Positions 16,340 to 50,959 of a stretch of DNA of 64,000 nucleotides are shown one piece after another. A program made the position numbers and the translations under genes. How positions within the stretch are numbered: the first letter of the stretch is position 1; the number at the start of each line of letters is the position of its first letter. The stretch covers positions 361,574 through 425,573 of the forward strand of contig CAMYOL010000007.1 in NCBI GenBank assembly GCA_947260005.1, in the 5' to 3' direction. The stretch comes from an uncultured Ectothiorhodospiraceae bacterium. Its GTDB lineage: Bacteria; Pseudomonadota; Gammaproteobacteria; UBA6429; Thiohalophilaceae. The notes beneath the pieces were generated by a model. It was not told the DNA's origin and made no database searches. It worked only from the letters and a program-made list of their open reading frames with translations.

Positions 16340-16660
16340 AAAGCCTGTCATCCCGATTGGTTCAGGTCAGTCATCCTGAGCGGAGCGAAGGATCTTGCCA
16401 AGAACAGCAGGGCTTTCGATTTGCTTAACCTGTGCTGTCATAAGTTCCTTCGTCGTTTCAATCCTCAGGATGACAGGTTCGCTTTGCTATGGATGATAGT
16501 AGACAAATTATCTGGATTCTCCCTCTCCAGGGAGAATGACGAGAAGGTGATGAAAAGATGTTGTTTCTATTTGGTAAAACTTAAGATCCTGCGTCGTTTC
16601 ACTCCTCAGGATGACAAATTTTTCATGTCATCCTGAGTGAAACGAGCCTGTCATCTGCTT
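16340..16660. repeat. Intergenic array of CATCCTGAG...GGATCTT palindromic repeats
   Basis: This 465-base gap holds several partial copies, in both orientations, of an interspersed repeat with core ATCCTGAG-CGGAGCGAAGGATCTT or its variant with CGACGAAGGATC. It also holds a block at 16511-16637 starting with a hairpin (ATTCTCCCT/AGGGAGAAT). The 16511-16637 block recurs at 18233-18354 beyond the fic gene. A 71-codon open frame here is built from the repeats and is not a gene. Confidence 0.8.
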
Positions 16661-16764: not shown

Positions 16765-17928
16765 TTATGGCAATTCGTTACCCTGGTTTAAAATTGCTAT
16801 GTATTCACCATAAGCATAAATACGATTTCGTTGCTTTCCGGTCAGCTCCTGCAAAATATTGAGCTTCTCAAGTTTTTGAAGACCCGATTGGATGGTCGCC
16901 GGTGCCAAATCCGTTTCATTTTTTATCCGCGCCGCGCTGGTAACAGGTCGTCGCAGTAGTACATTGTATATTTGTGACAATGTACCCGCAAAACGGCCCT
17001 GTCCCTGAATAGCAGCTCGATCCCGTTCTGATTGATCAATTAATTCCTTTGCCGTGAGTACGGCATTATTTGCTGTCTGCTCAGTCGCATCCGCAAAATA
17101 CTCAAGCCAGGCCTCCCAATCTCCGGTGAGCCGCACCTGATTCAAACGTTCATAATATTCCTGTCGATGGGTTTTAAAATATAAACTTAAATATAACAAA
17201 GGTTGTTGCAATACTTTTTCTGCCACCAAAATCAAGGTAATGAGCAAGCGACCTAGCCGACCATTGCCATCCAGAAAAGGGTGAATGGTTTCAAACTGCA
17301 CATGCACTAATGCCGCCTTGAGTACGGATGGTGTTTGCTGTCCCTGGTTATGGATAAACTTTTCAAGTGCAGACAGCACATCGGCAATTTCCTCAGCGGG
17401 TGGCGGTACAAACACCGCATTACCTGGACGTGTACCCCCAATCAAGTTTTGCGACTGGCGTAGCTCACCAGGCTGCTTCGTGCTACCGCGCCCGCCTGAT
17501 AACAAAATGGCATGAATCTCTCTCAACAAGCGCACTGATATTGGAAATCCTTCTTCCAACCTACCTAAGCCATGCTCCAATGCAGCGACGTAATTACTCA
17601 CCTCCTCCACATCATCAATGGGCACACCCGGTCGCGCCGAAAGCTCATACAAGAGCAGATCCGATAGAGAGGATTGCGTGCCTTCAATCATGGACGAAAG
17701 TACCGCTTCTTTTCGCACATACATATAAAGGAAAATATCCGTATCCGGCAACAAACTGGAAATACTGTCCAGCCTTCCCAGAGCCAGATGAGCCTTTTCA
17801 AAGCGTTGGCGCAATGCAAGTGACCATTCAATATCCGGCTTTGGGGGCAGTGCAGCCGGTATAAAAGCTTGAACGGACTCCCCCACGGTGGAAATGGTGA
17901 CGTATTTGCCCTGTATTTCTCTTTTCAT
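16765..17928 (-). CDS. Fic-domain AMPylase-type protein with inhibitory helix and C-terminal winged helix
   Basis: A 387-residue Fic protein. The N-terminal helix carries the inhibitory motif [ST]xxxE[GN] as SSMIEG (S78, E82), as in class II Fic proteins that hold themselves inactive. The Fic core has the complete HPFLDGNGRLGR (H216 to R227), so nucleotidyl transfer, usually AMPylation of a hydroxyl side chain, is expected when inhibition is relieved. Residues about 305-370 read as a winged-helix DNA-binding domain (VTSAARIKNETDLAPATIQSG). No separate Fic antitoxin of class I type was found. Its promoter holds iterated sites that the HTH could bind. Matching repeats flank the gene. Confidence 0.93.
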   Translation of the reverse strand: MKREIQGKYVTISTVGESVQAFIPAALPPKPDIEWSLALRQRFEKAHLALGRLDSISSLLPDTDIFLYMYVRKEAVLSSMIEGTQSSLSDLLLYELSARPGVPIDDVEEVSNYVAALEHGLGRLEEGFPISVRLLREIHAILLSGGRGSTKQPGELRQSQNLIGGTRPGNAVFVPPPAEEIADVLSALEKFIHNQGQQTPSVLKAALVHVQFETIHPFLDGNGRLGRLLITLILVAEKVLQQPLLYLSLYFKTHRQEYYERLNQVRLTGDWEAWLEYFADATEQTANNAVLTAKELIDQSERDRAAIQGQGRFAGTLSQIYNVLLRRPVTSAARIKNETDLAPATIQSGLQKLEKLNILQELTGKQRNRIYAYGEYIAILNQGNELP

Positions 17929-17965
17929 GATCCTGTTTCAATCATTGAATTACCGTACCCTACTA

Positions 17966-18021
17966 TTTCATTATTTCGATTTCATTATTTCGATTTCATT
18001 ATTTCGATTTCATTATTTCGA
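17966..18021 (-). repeat. Four 14-bp tandem repeats in the fic leader (candidate operator)
   Basis: The unit TTTCATTATTTCGA (plus-strand reading) is repeated four times without interruption at 17966, 17980, 17994 and 18008, with a partial fifth. On the fic strand each unit contains GAAATA-type half-sites. The array lies just downstream of the predicted start of transcription and upstream of the fic start codon. An iterated site in this place fits cooperative repressor binding, probably by the Fic protein itself. Confidence 0.75.
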
Positions 18022-18026
18022 TTTCA

Positions 18027-18062
18027 TTGAAATAGTATAATTCACTATTTCAATAAACGCAA
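18027..18062 (-). promoter_or_regulatory. Predicted fic promoter with overlapping inverted repeat
   Basis: On the minus strand TTGCGT (18062-18057), a 17-base spacer and TATACT (18039-18034) form a fair sigma-70 promoter. The inverted repeat GAAATAG/CTATTTC with a 9-base spacer covers the -10 region and shares its half-site with the neighbouring 14-bp tandem repeats. Repression by occlusion is a natural reading. Confidence 0.55.
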
Positions 18063-18212: not shown

Positions 18213-18232
18213 AGTAATCATGTCTTACGAAA

Positions 18233-18430
18233 TCTGGATTCTCCCTCTCCAGGGAGAATGACGAGAAAGTGATGAAAAGATGCTGTTACTATTTGGTAAA
18301 CTTAAGATCCTTCGCTGCGCTCAGGATGACAAATTTTTCCTGTCATCCTGAGGAGTGGAACGACGAAGGATCTTGATCCTTCGCTTCACTCGGATGACAG
18401 GCTCGCTTTGCTATGGATGACAGTATACAA
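18233..18430. repeat. Second repeat block beyond fic, matching 16467-16637
   Basis: Bases 18233-18354 repeat 16511-16637 in the same orientation with few differences (hairpin ATTCTCCCT/AGGGAGAAT, then GTGATGAAAAGATG, then CTTAAGATCCT, then ATGACAAATTTTT). Bases 18390-18430 repeat 16467-16505 (CTCGCTTTGCTATGGATGA). The two sub-blocks are in swapped order relative to the other side of fic. The rest of the 505-base gap holds the fic promoter and little else. Confidence 0.8.
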
Positions 18431-18433
18431 AAG

Positions 18434-26914: not shown

Positions 26915-27002
26915 GGGGGTCAGAGACGTATTTTTGTTTTGCATATTTTATATAACTCAAAAATACGTCTCTGACCCCCTTTTTTTTTCCGTCTCTGACC
27001 CC
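26915..27002. repeat. GGGGTCAGAGACG palindromic element, copy 1
   Basis: Two arms of about 20 bases (GGGGTCAGAGACGTATTTTT and its complement) surround a 20-base A+T-rich loop. A third arm (CCGTCTCTGACCCC) follows after a T-run, 26989-27002. The stop codon of the ABM gene (27002-27004) is formed at the edge of the third arm. This resembles REP-type elements mobilised by Y1-family (RAYT) transposases, but no such transposase is in the window. Confidence 0.85.
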
Positions 27003-27295
27003 TATTTTTCTCCCTGGTACTCCCTTAAAACTTCGACAATCTTAACGTCATAATGTCGATACCATTTTTCTCGACCTAATTGTTGCGCTGTGAGGTGTGC
27101 CGGATCCTGTTTCCAGGCACGAATGTCATCCGTGCTGTTCCAATAGGAGATAGTAATCTCCTGGTTACCTTCTGTTACCGACTGAATATTCTGACAATGA
27201 TAGTTTTCAAAGGCTAGCGTGCGCATTCGTTCTGCCGTTTGAGTGTATTCGTCATCTAATGATAACAATTCTGCTGTAAAGATTACCGCATACAT
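27002..27295 (-). CDS. Antibiotic-biosynthesis-monooxygenase (ABM) domain protein
   Basis: A 97-residue ferredoxin-like-fold protein. It starts MYAVIFTAEL and has ISYWNSTDDIRAWKQDPAHL and GREKWYRHYDVKIVEVLREY, the typical ABM pattern. ABM proteins are small dimeric oxygenases or stress-related folds; the substrate is unknown. It is the last gene of the WbuC-GDPD-GlpD-ABM run, 18 bases after the GlpD-like gene. Its TAG stop borders palindromic element 1. Confidence 0.85.
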   Translation of the reverse strand: MYAVIFTAELLSLDDEYTQTAERMRTLAFENYHCQNIQSVTEGNQEITISYWNSTDDIRAWKQDPAHLTAQQLGREKWYRHYDVKIVEVLREYQGEK

Positions 27296-40369: not shown

Positions 40370-41560
40370 CTAACGGCGGCGTCTGGCCTTCTTCTTCGTT
40401 ACTTTCTTTTTGGCCTTTTTCTTGGCCTTCTTCTTGGCCTTCTTCTTGGCCTTCTTCTTGGCCTTCTTCTTGGCCTTCTTCTTGGCCTTCTTCTTGGCCT
40501 TCTTCTTGGCCTTCTTCTTCGTTACTTTCTTCTTAGCCTTTTTCTTGGCCTTCTTCTTCGTTACTTTCTTCTTGGCCTTTTTCTTGGCTTTCTTCTTCGT
40601 TACTTTCTTCTTGGCTTTTTTCTTGGCTTTCTTCTTCGTTACTTTCTTCTTGGCCTTTTTCTTGGCTTTTTTCTTGGTCGTTTTCTTCTTGGCCTTTTTC
40701 TTGGCCGCCTTCTTCTTGGTTTTCTTCTTGATCACTTTCTTTTTAGTTGCCTTTTTCTTAGTGGCTTTTTTCTTGGTGGCCTTCTTCTTCGTCGCCTTCT
40801 TCTTCGTCGCCTTTTTCTTAGTCGCTTTTTTCTTGGTCGTTTTCTTCTTGGCTGCTGGCTTTTTCTTAGCCGCTGGCTTCTGCGCAACCGGTTCCGCAGG
40901 CGCTTCATCAGAAGGCAAGCTATCCAGGATCTGACATACGTTCATGAAGATCGTCTCGATTTCACCAATGCCTTGTACTGATCTTAATTTTCCTTGCCCC
41001 TGATAGTAATCAACTAACGGTGCGGTTTGTGCTTCGTATACTCGTAAACGATTGCTGATGGTTGCTTCGTTATCATCGGATCGCTGGGTAACTTCGCCAC
41101 CACATTTATCACAAACTCCATCAGTCCGAGGTGGGTTGGTGTGTACATTGTACATTTGCCCGCATGAACCACAGGTACGACGCCCGGTTAAGCGCTGCAT
41201 CAAGACATCAAAATCGACATCGATCAACAGTGAGGTCTGTAATGGTTTGCCCATGTCCGATAACAATCGATCCAGGGCTTCAGCTTGAGGGATATTGCGT
41301 GGGAAACCATCGAGAATAAAACCATTTTGAGCATCAGACCTGGATAGTCGTTCTTTGATCATGCCCAAGACAATGTCATCAGAGACGAGTTGTCCTGCAT
41401 CCATTGCAGCCTTGGCTTGCATACCTAATTCTGAACCCGCGGCAACGGCTTCGCGTAGTAAATCGCCAGTCGACAATTGCGGTATGCCGTACTTCTCGAT
41501 GAGTAATTTAGCTTGTGTGCCTTTGCCCCCACCAGGGGCACCAATTAATACGATTCTCAT
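40370..41560 (-). CDS. adk: Adenylate kinase fused to a long Lys/Ala-rich histone-H1-like tail
   Basis: The ATG at 41560 begins MRIVLIGAPGGGKGTQ; an in-frame start 39 bases upstream adds nothing conserved. Residues 1-220 are a complete long-form Adk: P-loop, LSTGDLLR, FILDGFPR, a zinc-type LID (CGSCGQMYN...CDKCGG) and ISNRLRVYEAQTAPLVDYY. It interconverts 2 ADP and ATP plus AMP. The same frame then runs on for about 175 residues of KKKA, TKKKA and VTKKK units with almost no other residues, ending KKKARRRR. This tail resembles AlgP, BpH1 or H1 C-terminal domains and should bind nucleic acid or polyphosphate. No stop, start or ribosome site was seen between the parts. Confidence 0.93.
   Translation of the reverse strand: MRIVLIGAPGGGKGTQAKLLIEKYGIPQLSTGDLLREAVAAGSELGMQAKAAMDAGQLVSDDIVLGMIKERLSRSDAQNGFILDGFPRNIPQAEALDRLLSDMGKPLQTSLLIDVDFDVLMQRLTGRRTCGSCGQMYNVHTNPPRTDGVCDKCGGEVTQRSDDNEATISNRLRVYEAQTAPLVDYYQGQGKLRSVQGIGEIETIFMNVCQILDSLPSDEAPAEPVAQKPAAKKKPAAKKKTTKKKATKKKATKKKATKKKATKKKATKKKATKKKVIKKKTKKKAAKKKAKKKTTKKKAKKKAKKKVTKKKAKKKAKKKVTKKKAKKKAKKKVTKKKAKKKAKKKVTKKKAKKKAKKKAKKKAKKKAKKKAKKKAKKKAKKKAKKKVTKKKARRRR
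40379..40870 (-). repeat. Tandem coding repeats in the adk tail
   Basis: The tail DNA consists of three repeat classes: about seven ATKKK units (15 bp), four KKKAKKKAKKKVT units (39 bp) and about ten AKKK units (12 bp, GCCAAGAAGAAG on the coding strand). Such arrays slip easily, so the tail length may vary between strains. Antisense open frames (Leu/Phe-rich) are shadows. Confidence 0.9.
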
Positions 41561-44202: not shown

Positions 44203-44394
44203 GGGTCAGAGACGGAAAAAAAAAGGGTGAAAAAAAAGGGGTCAGAGACGTATTTTTCTCGTAACCGTCATTCCCGCGGAGGCGGGAATCCAAATATTTA
44301 GATTCCCGCCTCCGCGGGAATGACAAGAGAAAAGAGAAATACGTCTCTGACCCCTTTTTTTTCCGTCTCTGACCCCTATTTTTCCTGACCCTCA
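44203..44394. repeat. Three-layer nested palindromic element
   Basis: Outer arms: GGGTCAGAGACGGAAAA at 44203 and its complement near 44360-44378. Middle arms: GGGGTCAGAGACGTATTTTT at 44238-44257 and its complement near 44335-44354. Inner core: a perfect 24-bp inverted repeat, 44267-44290 and 44301-44324 (ATTCCCGC...GCGGGAAT type, like Neisseria dRS3 and related repeats), around a 10-base loop. It fills the entire space between two convergent genes. Confidence 0.92.
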
Positions 44395-44398
44395 TTTT

Positions 44399-44845
44399 TT
44401 AAACGGTACCCGGTGTGTTTTTCTCTACCCAACGTGTTTGACCGTCATCAAGGGTTTCTTTTTTCCAAAACGGGGCTTCAGATTTTAATGCCTCCATAAT
44501 GAATTGATTGGCGGCATAAGCATGGGCCCGGTGCGCCGACCAGACCACGACAACGACAATGGTATCAGACGGATTGATTTTACCGACACGATGCAACACC
44601 AGTGCATCCATCAGTGACCATTCGTCCATCGCTCGTTGAACGATATCCTCTAAAAATTTTTCCGACATGCCTGGATAGTGTTCCAGCTGCATCTGACGAA
44701 CGGTCTCATCTTCATTAAAATCACGCATACGACCCGCAAACACCACACTCGCGCCATGCTGACCAGCCAGTTCCGGGTGTTCGTCTTCATACGAGGCTAA
44801 ACGAGGCCATACATCAATCGGTTGTTCGCTGATCTCAACCAACAT
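44399..44845 (-). CDS. moaE: Molybdopterin synthase catalytic subunit
   Basis: A 148-residue MoaE. It has GASVVFAGRMRDFNEDETV, the MoaD-binding HRVGKINPSDTIVVVVVWSAHR stretch and the active-site Lys motif EAPFWKKE. It moves sulfur from MoaD onto cyclic pyranopterin to make molybdopterin. It lies 1 base after moaD. Its stop is adjacent to the nested repeat. Confidence 0.95.
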   Translation of the reverse strand: MLVEISEQPIDVWPRLASYEDEHPELAGQHGASVVFAGRMRDFNEDETVRQMQLEHYPGMSEKFLEDIVQRAMDEWSLMDALVLHRVGKINPSDTIVVVVVWSAHRAHAYAANQFIMEALKSEAPFWKKETLDDGQTRWVEKNTPGTV

Positions 44846-50400: not shown

Positions 50401-50482
50401 ATAGGGGTCAGAGACGTATTTTTGCTCGAAATTAAATGATTCCAAAAATACGTCTCTGACCCCTATTTACTGACCCCTATTT
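50401..50482. repeat. GGGGTCAGAGACG palindromic element, copy 4
   Basis: Arms of about 20 bases (GGGGTCAGAGACGTATTTTT and complement) with a short A+T-rich loop, then a partial third arm (TGACCCCTATTT). The third arm supplies the TAG stop of the convergent lipoprotein gene. Confidence 0.88.
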
Positions 50483-50959
50483 ATTATTTTGTGGGGTGAT
50501 TTCGAGTTTCATCAAACCATTAACAGCTTGTTCCATTTGTTCATGCGTAAGGTAACTACCGGAATTATCATCCCAGTTGCCACACGTGATCTCGAAAAGT
50601 GGTACCGATGCAGATGAGGTGAGGCGCATTGTCGTTTTAAAGCTGGTTTGCATTTCGTTGATTGGATCGTTCGCAAAGACTACTCGATTTATTTCATAGC
50701 TGCCTGCGGTTATTGTACGAAAAGCATCGACTTTATCTTGCATGACCAAATGACACCAGGGTTTGTATTGATCGGCACTGATCCGGGCAACAGGTTTACC
50801 ATATTGAAAAGTGATACCGGTCTTATTAGGGGGTACTTCAATTTTTCCAATCACAACCCATTTTGAGCCGACAAGATTGCTCTTAACCGCGCAGGCTGAC
50901 AAAGTCCCTGTTAGAAATACAACAAGAACAAGTTTAATAGATACAAAACGTCGATAGCT
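50477..50959 (-). CDS. Lipoprotein of unknown function
   Basis: A 160-residue lipoprotein from the ATG at 50959 (CAGGTAG upstream). The signal ends in a lipobox LSAC. The mature part (WVVIGKIEVPPNKTGITFQYGK, WCHLVMQDK, AGSYEINRVVFANDPINEMQTSFKTTMRL) is a beta-rich domain, and the late ITCGNWDDNSGSYLTHEQMEQA with its Cys is unrecognised. The stop codon lies within the neighbouring palindromic repeat. Confidence 0.72.
   Translation of the reverse strand, partial: SYRRFVSIKLVLVVFLTGTLSACAVKSNLVGSKWVVIGKIEVPPNKTGITFQYGKPVARISADQYKPWCHLVMQDKVDAFRTITAGSYEINRVVFANDPINEMQTSFKTTMRLTSSASVPLFEITCGNWDDNSGSYLTHEQMEQAVNGLMKLEITPQNNK

Follow-up and report, generated by a model that had tools for sequence, protein, structure and literature searches.

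The fic gene of the window (the whole 64,000-nt stretch of DNA analysed) is probably repressed by its own product, acting through inverted half-sites at the fic promoter, and the tandem 14-bp repeats between these half-sites would be an expansion of the operator spacer. Many relatives of fic carry a three-half-site form of this operator.

Results

The fic promoter region

The gene, its upstream region and its product contain the following features:

17946..17953, minus strand: half-site O3, GTAATTCA, separated from O2 by 9 bp and from the ATG by 17 bp
17963..17970, minus strand: half-site O2, TGAAATAG, inverted, having ATGAAAT in common with the repeat unit
17972..18027, minus strand: four exact 14-bp units, ATGAAATCGAAATA, within the O1-O2 spacer
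18028..18035, minus strand: half-site O1, CTATTTCA, overlapping the -10 box
18045..18052, minus strand: half-site O0, TGAAATAG, an extra site, inverted relative to O1 across a 9-bp gap
18034..18062, minus strand: predicted sigma70-type promoter, TTGCGT-17-TATACT, read by eye
16765..17928, minus strand: fic gene, 387 aa, Fic_N and Fic domains, class II, C-terminal winged helix
Fic residues S78-S79-M-I-E82-G83, in the N-terminal part: class II inhibitory motif
Fic residues 216-224: Fic motif, HPFLDGNGR
Fic residues about 311-381: C-terminal winged helix, with recognition helix 343-355

The -35 box occupies positions 18062-18057 and the -10 box 18039-18034. A consensus promoter scan requiring at least 9 of 12 matches did not list this pair because its -35 match is weak, and the promoter therefore stays a prediction. 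The inverted repeat TTGAAATAGT-gaattat-ACTATTTCAA (18053-18044 and 18036-18027) overlaps the predicted -10 box with its right arm. The first-pass annotation had described 7-bp arms at this place; they are in fact perfect over 10 bp, with a 7-bp gap. Its four exact repeats before the start codon were recovered as well, as exactly four copies and a partial fifth (TRF: 17965-18028, 4.6 copies, 100% matches). It had missed O2 and O3, which lie beyond the array, and with them the position of the array inside a conserved O1-O2 spacer. Read along the coding strand, the region runs TTGCGT, 17 bp, TATACT, ACTATTTCA, the four units, one A, TGAAATAGT, 8 bp, GTAATTCA, 17 bp and ATG. The half-sites are thus separated by 9 bp (O0-O1), 57 bp (O1-O2) and 9 bp (O2-O3), and O0 is rare in relatives (3/46).

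REP-like interspersed repeats ("GTCATCCTGAG..." elements) form one cluster on each side of fic, at 16441-16660 and 18225-18431. Among them is a direct repeat of 69 bp with 96% identity, parts of which recur 74 times in the genome, and fic may have arrived, or may depart, by recombination between the clusters. Elsewhere in the window, a long array of 12/15/39-bp repeats (TTCTTCTTGGCC...) at 40385-40879 probably encodes, on the minus strand, a lysine- and alanine-rich histone H1-like tail, and the short repeat CTGACCCCTATTTTT is scattered at 26966-27013, 44342-44399 and 50456-50483.

The Fic protein

As judged from its sequence, the window Fic is an AMP-transferring enzyme of the SoFic (phage-defence) type. 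It has the architecture of that type, with an HxFxDGNGR core, an N-terminal inhibitory motif and a C-terminal winged helix. In an alignment of 40 homologues S78/S79-I81-E82-G83 and HP-LDGNGR are invariant, and we therefore regard both motifs as intact. The AlphaFold model has a mean pLDDT of 83, rising to about 90 across residues 311-360, and ends in three helices (311-326, 332-339 and 343-355) and a strand (370-372) that together make up a winged helix. The SoFic structures 3zcn and 3eqx superpose on residues 7-385 (3zcn: Z 34.5, 24% identity), so that the winged helix proposed in the first-pass annotation finds structural support. SoFic itself (SO_4266, PDB 3eqx/3zcn), a single-gene anti-phage Fic, shares the whole-length fold and the inhibitory and catalytic motifs with the window Fic. 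The PADLOC SoFic model scores the window Fic at 390.5 bits; unlike SoFic proper, it falls below the cut-off of the NCBIfam equivalog NF046030 (154.8 bits against 550 bits).

A three-site operator in the Fic family

The homologue set comprised about 200 members, with upstream regions from many phyla, of which 191 were scored. In the dominant geometry O1 (forward) is followed after 16 bp by O2 (inverted) and after a further 9 bp by O3 (forward), with O3 about 17 bp before the ATG. A triple operator with at least 20/24 matches occurs in 105 of the 191 regions and in 0.4% of 1,910 shuffles, a comparison that yields no p-value, as the shuffles retain nothing but base composition and the homologues share ancestry; the remaining 86 regions score below 20. 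Outside the window, loci that show the operator keep the O1-O2 spacing constant to about a base or two. In many homologues a TTGAC or TTGATT lies 16 bp ahead of O1, which places O1 on their -10 box too. A scan of offsets relative to O1 found no other common site; in some homologues extra copies extend the same lattice.

Many unrelated-looking half-site words occupy this identical geometry (57 dereplicated proteins), and because the words differ, inheritance of a single sequence does not explain the shared geometry. A Rhodoferax plasmid copy has the operator too and reads TTATTAAA-15-TTTAATAA-9-TTATTAAA. Two homologues above the NCBIfam SoFic cut-off, L217 and L218, use another word than the window, with several TGTCGA-type half-sites upstream, one exact inverted pair among them in L218, and so self-control through several sites may also exist in SoFic proper. 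Fic relatives are also carried by 77 IMG/VR viral contigs (L125-L201), many with a three-site operator of the same kind.

Tandem units occur in front of other family members. Upstream of fic in a Mucispirillum homologue (L058, positions about 1300-1500), a 40-bp unit composed of TTATTTTA / TAAAATAA half-site pairs is repeated 3.9 times, by its sequence an independent operator array. In a distant relative (L095, 38% identity), fic is preceded by three tandem units of 40 bp. These two cases indicate that operator regions of the Fic family do expand, by different units.

Fic as the candidate binder of its operator

The half-site word switches between clades and loosely tracks the recognition helix: TTATTTTA goes with xATVNK, ATCCTTTC with PT[IV]AKS, and CTATTTCA or CTAATTCA with PATIQS or PATIHS. 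A partial Mantel test of recognition helix against word gave a permutation p of 0.001; region 332-348 came out near the top of the whole protein, and of the single columns only one scored above wing residue N368. The lead of helix and wing columns together over the rest reaches no more than p 0.026, and residues 1-10 at the N-terminus score equally high. Covariation of helix and word is thus moderate after correction for relatedness, and it supports Fic as the binder without being decisive.

Across 93 loci no conserved neighbour, partner gene or antitoxin was found, and between fic and its flanking genes there is no ORF of at least 80 aa. In the whole 3.7-Mb genome, the palindrome TGAAATAG-N9-CTATTTCA occurs without mismatch at fic only, and the O2-O3 pair is one of three sites at two mismatches. 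A regulon search of the same genome at up to 3 mismatches returned 38 matches against 48 in the reversed control, that is, not above control. A palindrome with one mismatch at L203:1501-1525, downstream of a response regulator gene, lies about 20 bp before an unrelated ORF for a possible 184-aa membrane protein, possibly by chance.

These data bear on the idea that another regulator binds the sites while the winged helix of Fic serves otherwise, as in Coxiella CbFic2, where DNA binding is reported to stimulate (de)AMPylation of histone H3 and no operator has been defined (PMC10628234). The window Fic resembles CbFic2 in being a class II protein with a C-terminal winged helix, which in CbFic2 binds DNA, so a catalytic role for such binding has a precedent. 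However, a separate regulator is improbable given the lack of a conserved neighbouring gene, words that vary with Fic clade and recognition helix, and sites elsewhere in the genome no more frequent than in the control. Taken with the data on CccR described below, the missing neighbour, the tracking of the words and the restriction of the site to fic make a dedicated autorepressor the simplest reading.

The array as an expanded operator spacer

In L005, the closest homologue (79% identity), O1 and O2 are 15 bp apart. The 57 bp of the window equal 15 + 3x14, and the O2-O3 (9 bp) and O3-ATG (17 bp) distances are exactly kept. The register of the half-sites in the window was set through O2-O3 and L005, as its O1-O2 gap exceeds the range of the automatic triple search. 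When the array is collapsed to one unit, the window aligns to L005 without gaps from the promoter through the start codon, scoring 77, compared with 68.5 when all units are kept and at most 60 for shuffles. The remaining unit and the L005 spacer agree at 10/15 positions. From this gapless alignment we conclude that the array is best explained as a tandem multiplication of the O1-O2 spacer and not as independent binding sites. The ancestral spacer would have been 15 bp long, holding one unit, a copy number that rests on the family geometry since L005 is one sequence. The motif ATGAAAT, present in the unit and at O2, 14 bp apart, is a plausible seed for slippage.

The first-pass annotation had taken the units for iterons carrying the half-site, a view that this comparison does not support. 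A version in which they are working iteron-like sites, with Fic spreading across the array and copy number setting the repression, appears rather unlikely to us. Each unit does hold GAAATA-like words (TGAAATCG, CGAAATAA), and L058 and L095 independently bear their 40-bp-unit arrays upstream of related fic genes, the L058 units being whole half-site pairs. Yet the half-site of the 14-bp unit, TGAAATCG, is degenerate, agreeing with TGAAATAG at 6/8 positions in a match to the sequence word only, and direct spacing at 14 bp is foreign to a family built on inverted pairs at 16 and 9 bp. Nor were relatives with another copy number found among 370 related genomes; in these, a search with two consecutive units as the pattern hit the window's own genome only (reversed-pattern control, 0). 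The array was also searched for in viral contigs and not found.

That the array is a neutral slippage product without effect, tolerated since O0-O1 still covers the promoter, is a possibility we hold somewhat less doubtful. The ATGAAAT seed repeats, the occurrence in one genome among 370 and the sparing of O2-O3 and O3-ATG by the inserted 42 bp all agree with it; but elsewhere the O1-O2 spacing is tightly kept, which makes it unlikely that 42 bp more would have no effect at all.

The array also lengthens the fic leader, as the predicted transcript start is near the first unit, and each unit reads ATG AAA TCG AAA TAA, which encodes MKSK in four codons and ends in a stop that shares bases with the following ATG (TAATG). 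Control at the RNA level, through leader structure or a row of very short upstream frames, would draw on this position and on these mini-frames, but we judge it very unlikely: the leader folds no better than shuffles (z 0.56), the mini-frames have no Shine-Dalgarno-like sequence before them, and O1 lies on the -10 box, so that the conserved pattern is not wholly in the RNA.

Discussion

We think it probable that Fic represses fic through the half-sites and that the array is a spacer expansion of the operator they form. Fic would bind its own promoter by one word (CTATTTCA / TGAAATAG / GTAATTCA), and since O1 overlaps the -10 box, bound Fic would shut out RNA polymerase and hold down the level of an enzyme that is potentially toxic. 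Direct autorepression, which the first-pass annotation had suggested from the repeats and the winged helix, is likely in the light of indirect evidence: a conserved promoter operator, no partner gene, some covariation and the footprint of CccR. CccR of Yersinia pseudotuberculosis is a class II Fic protein with a C-terminal HTH, secreted by a type VI system, for which footprint and reporter data show repression of its own promoter at an inverted repeat near -35/-10 with 10-bp arms 26 bp apart (PMC9755527). The window fic likewise encodes a class II Fic with a C-terminal HTH, and its inverted half-sites (O0-O3) overlap its own promoter. Against this, CccR is distant, its half-sites are 26 bp apart, and for the Fic clade of the window binding is predicted from sequence. 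Unlike CccR, with one inverted pair and no tandem array described, the window has gaps of 9, 57 and 9 bp, and most of its Fic relatives have three half-sites at 16 and 9 bp.

The ancestral promoter may be pictured as O1 -15- O2 -9- O3 -17- ATG. Slippage between the ATGAAAT of the spacer and that of O2 would have added three 14-bp copies (42 bp). The operator would now be split into two separate inverted pairs with matching geometry, one on the promoter (O0-9-O1) and one ahead of the ribosome site (O2-9-O3). Fic could still work through these pairs, and O0 may compensate for the loss of the regular O1-O2 distance. An insertion of 42 bp amounts to about 4.0 helical turns and would leave O1 and O2 on one face, a phasing that, with three possible phases, is a one-in-three coincidence and no evidence in itself. 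Our guess is that the effect of the array on repression strength is modest, and it is possible that copy number tunes it. It is tempting to go further and see in spacer slippage a switchable dosage control of a phage-defence Fic toxin, in which 1 and 4 units repress and 2 and 3 do not, a scheme we consider improbable. If true, each 14-bp step would rotate O2-O3 relative to O1 by roughly one third of a helical turn, and cells would differ in readiness.

Plasmid iterons and other autoregulated replication repeats are short tandem direct repeats beside an autoregulated promoter. The window array differs from them, as it has no replication gene and its repeats copy the operator spacer, not the half-site.

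Autorepression as a principle is already known from CccR. What is new here is the three-site operator shared by this Fic branch and a natural expansion of its spacing, and we found no description of either in the literature, in open-licence full texts. The family-wide operator is of more interest than the array, and the window provides a natural spacing mutant of it. The regulation of SoFic-type solitary Fic proteins has been called elusive (PMC12249575), and little is known about how these toxins stay silent until needed. A three-half-site operator found across many phyla, with words that follow the recognition helix, offers a directly testable answer, namely that the enzyme would be its own repressor.
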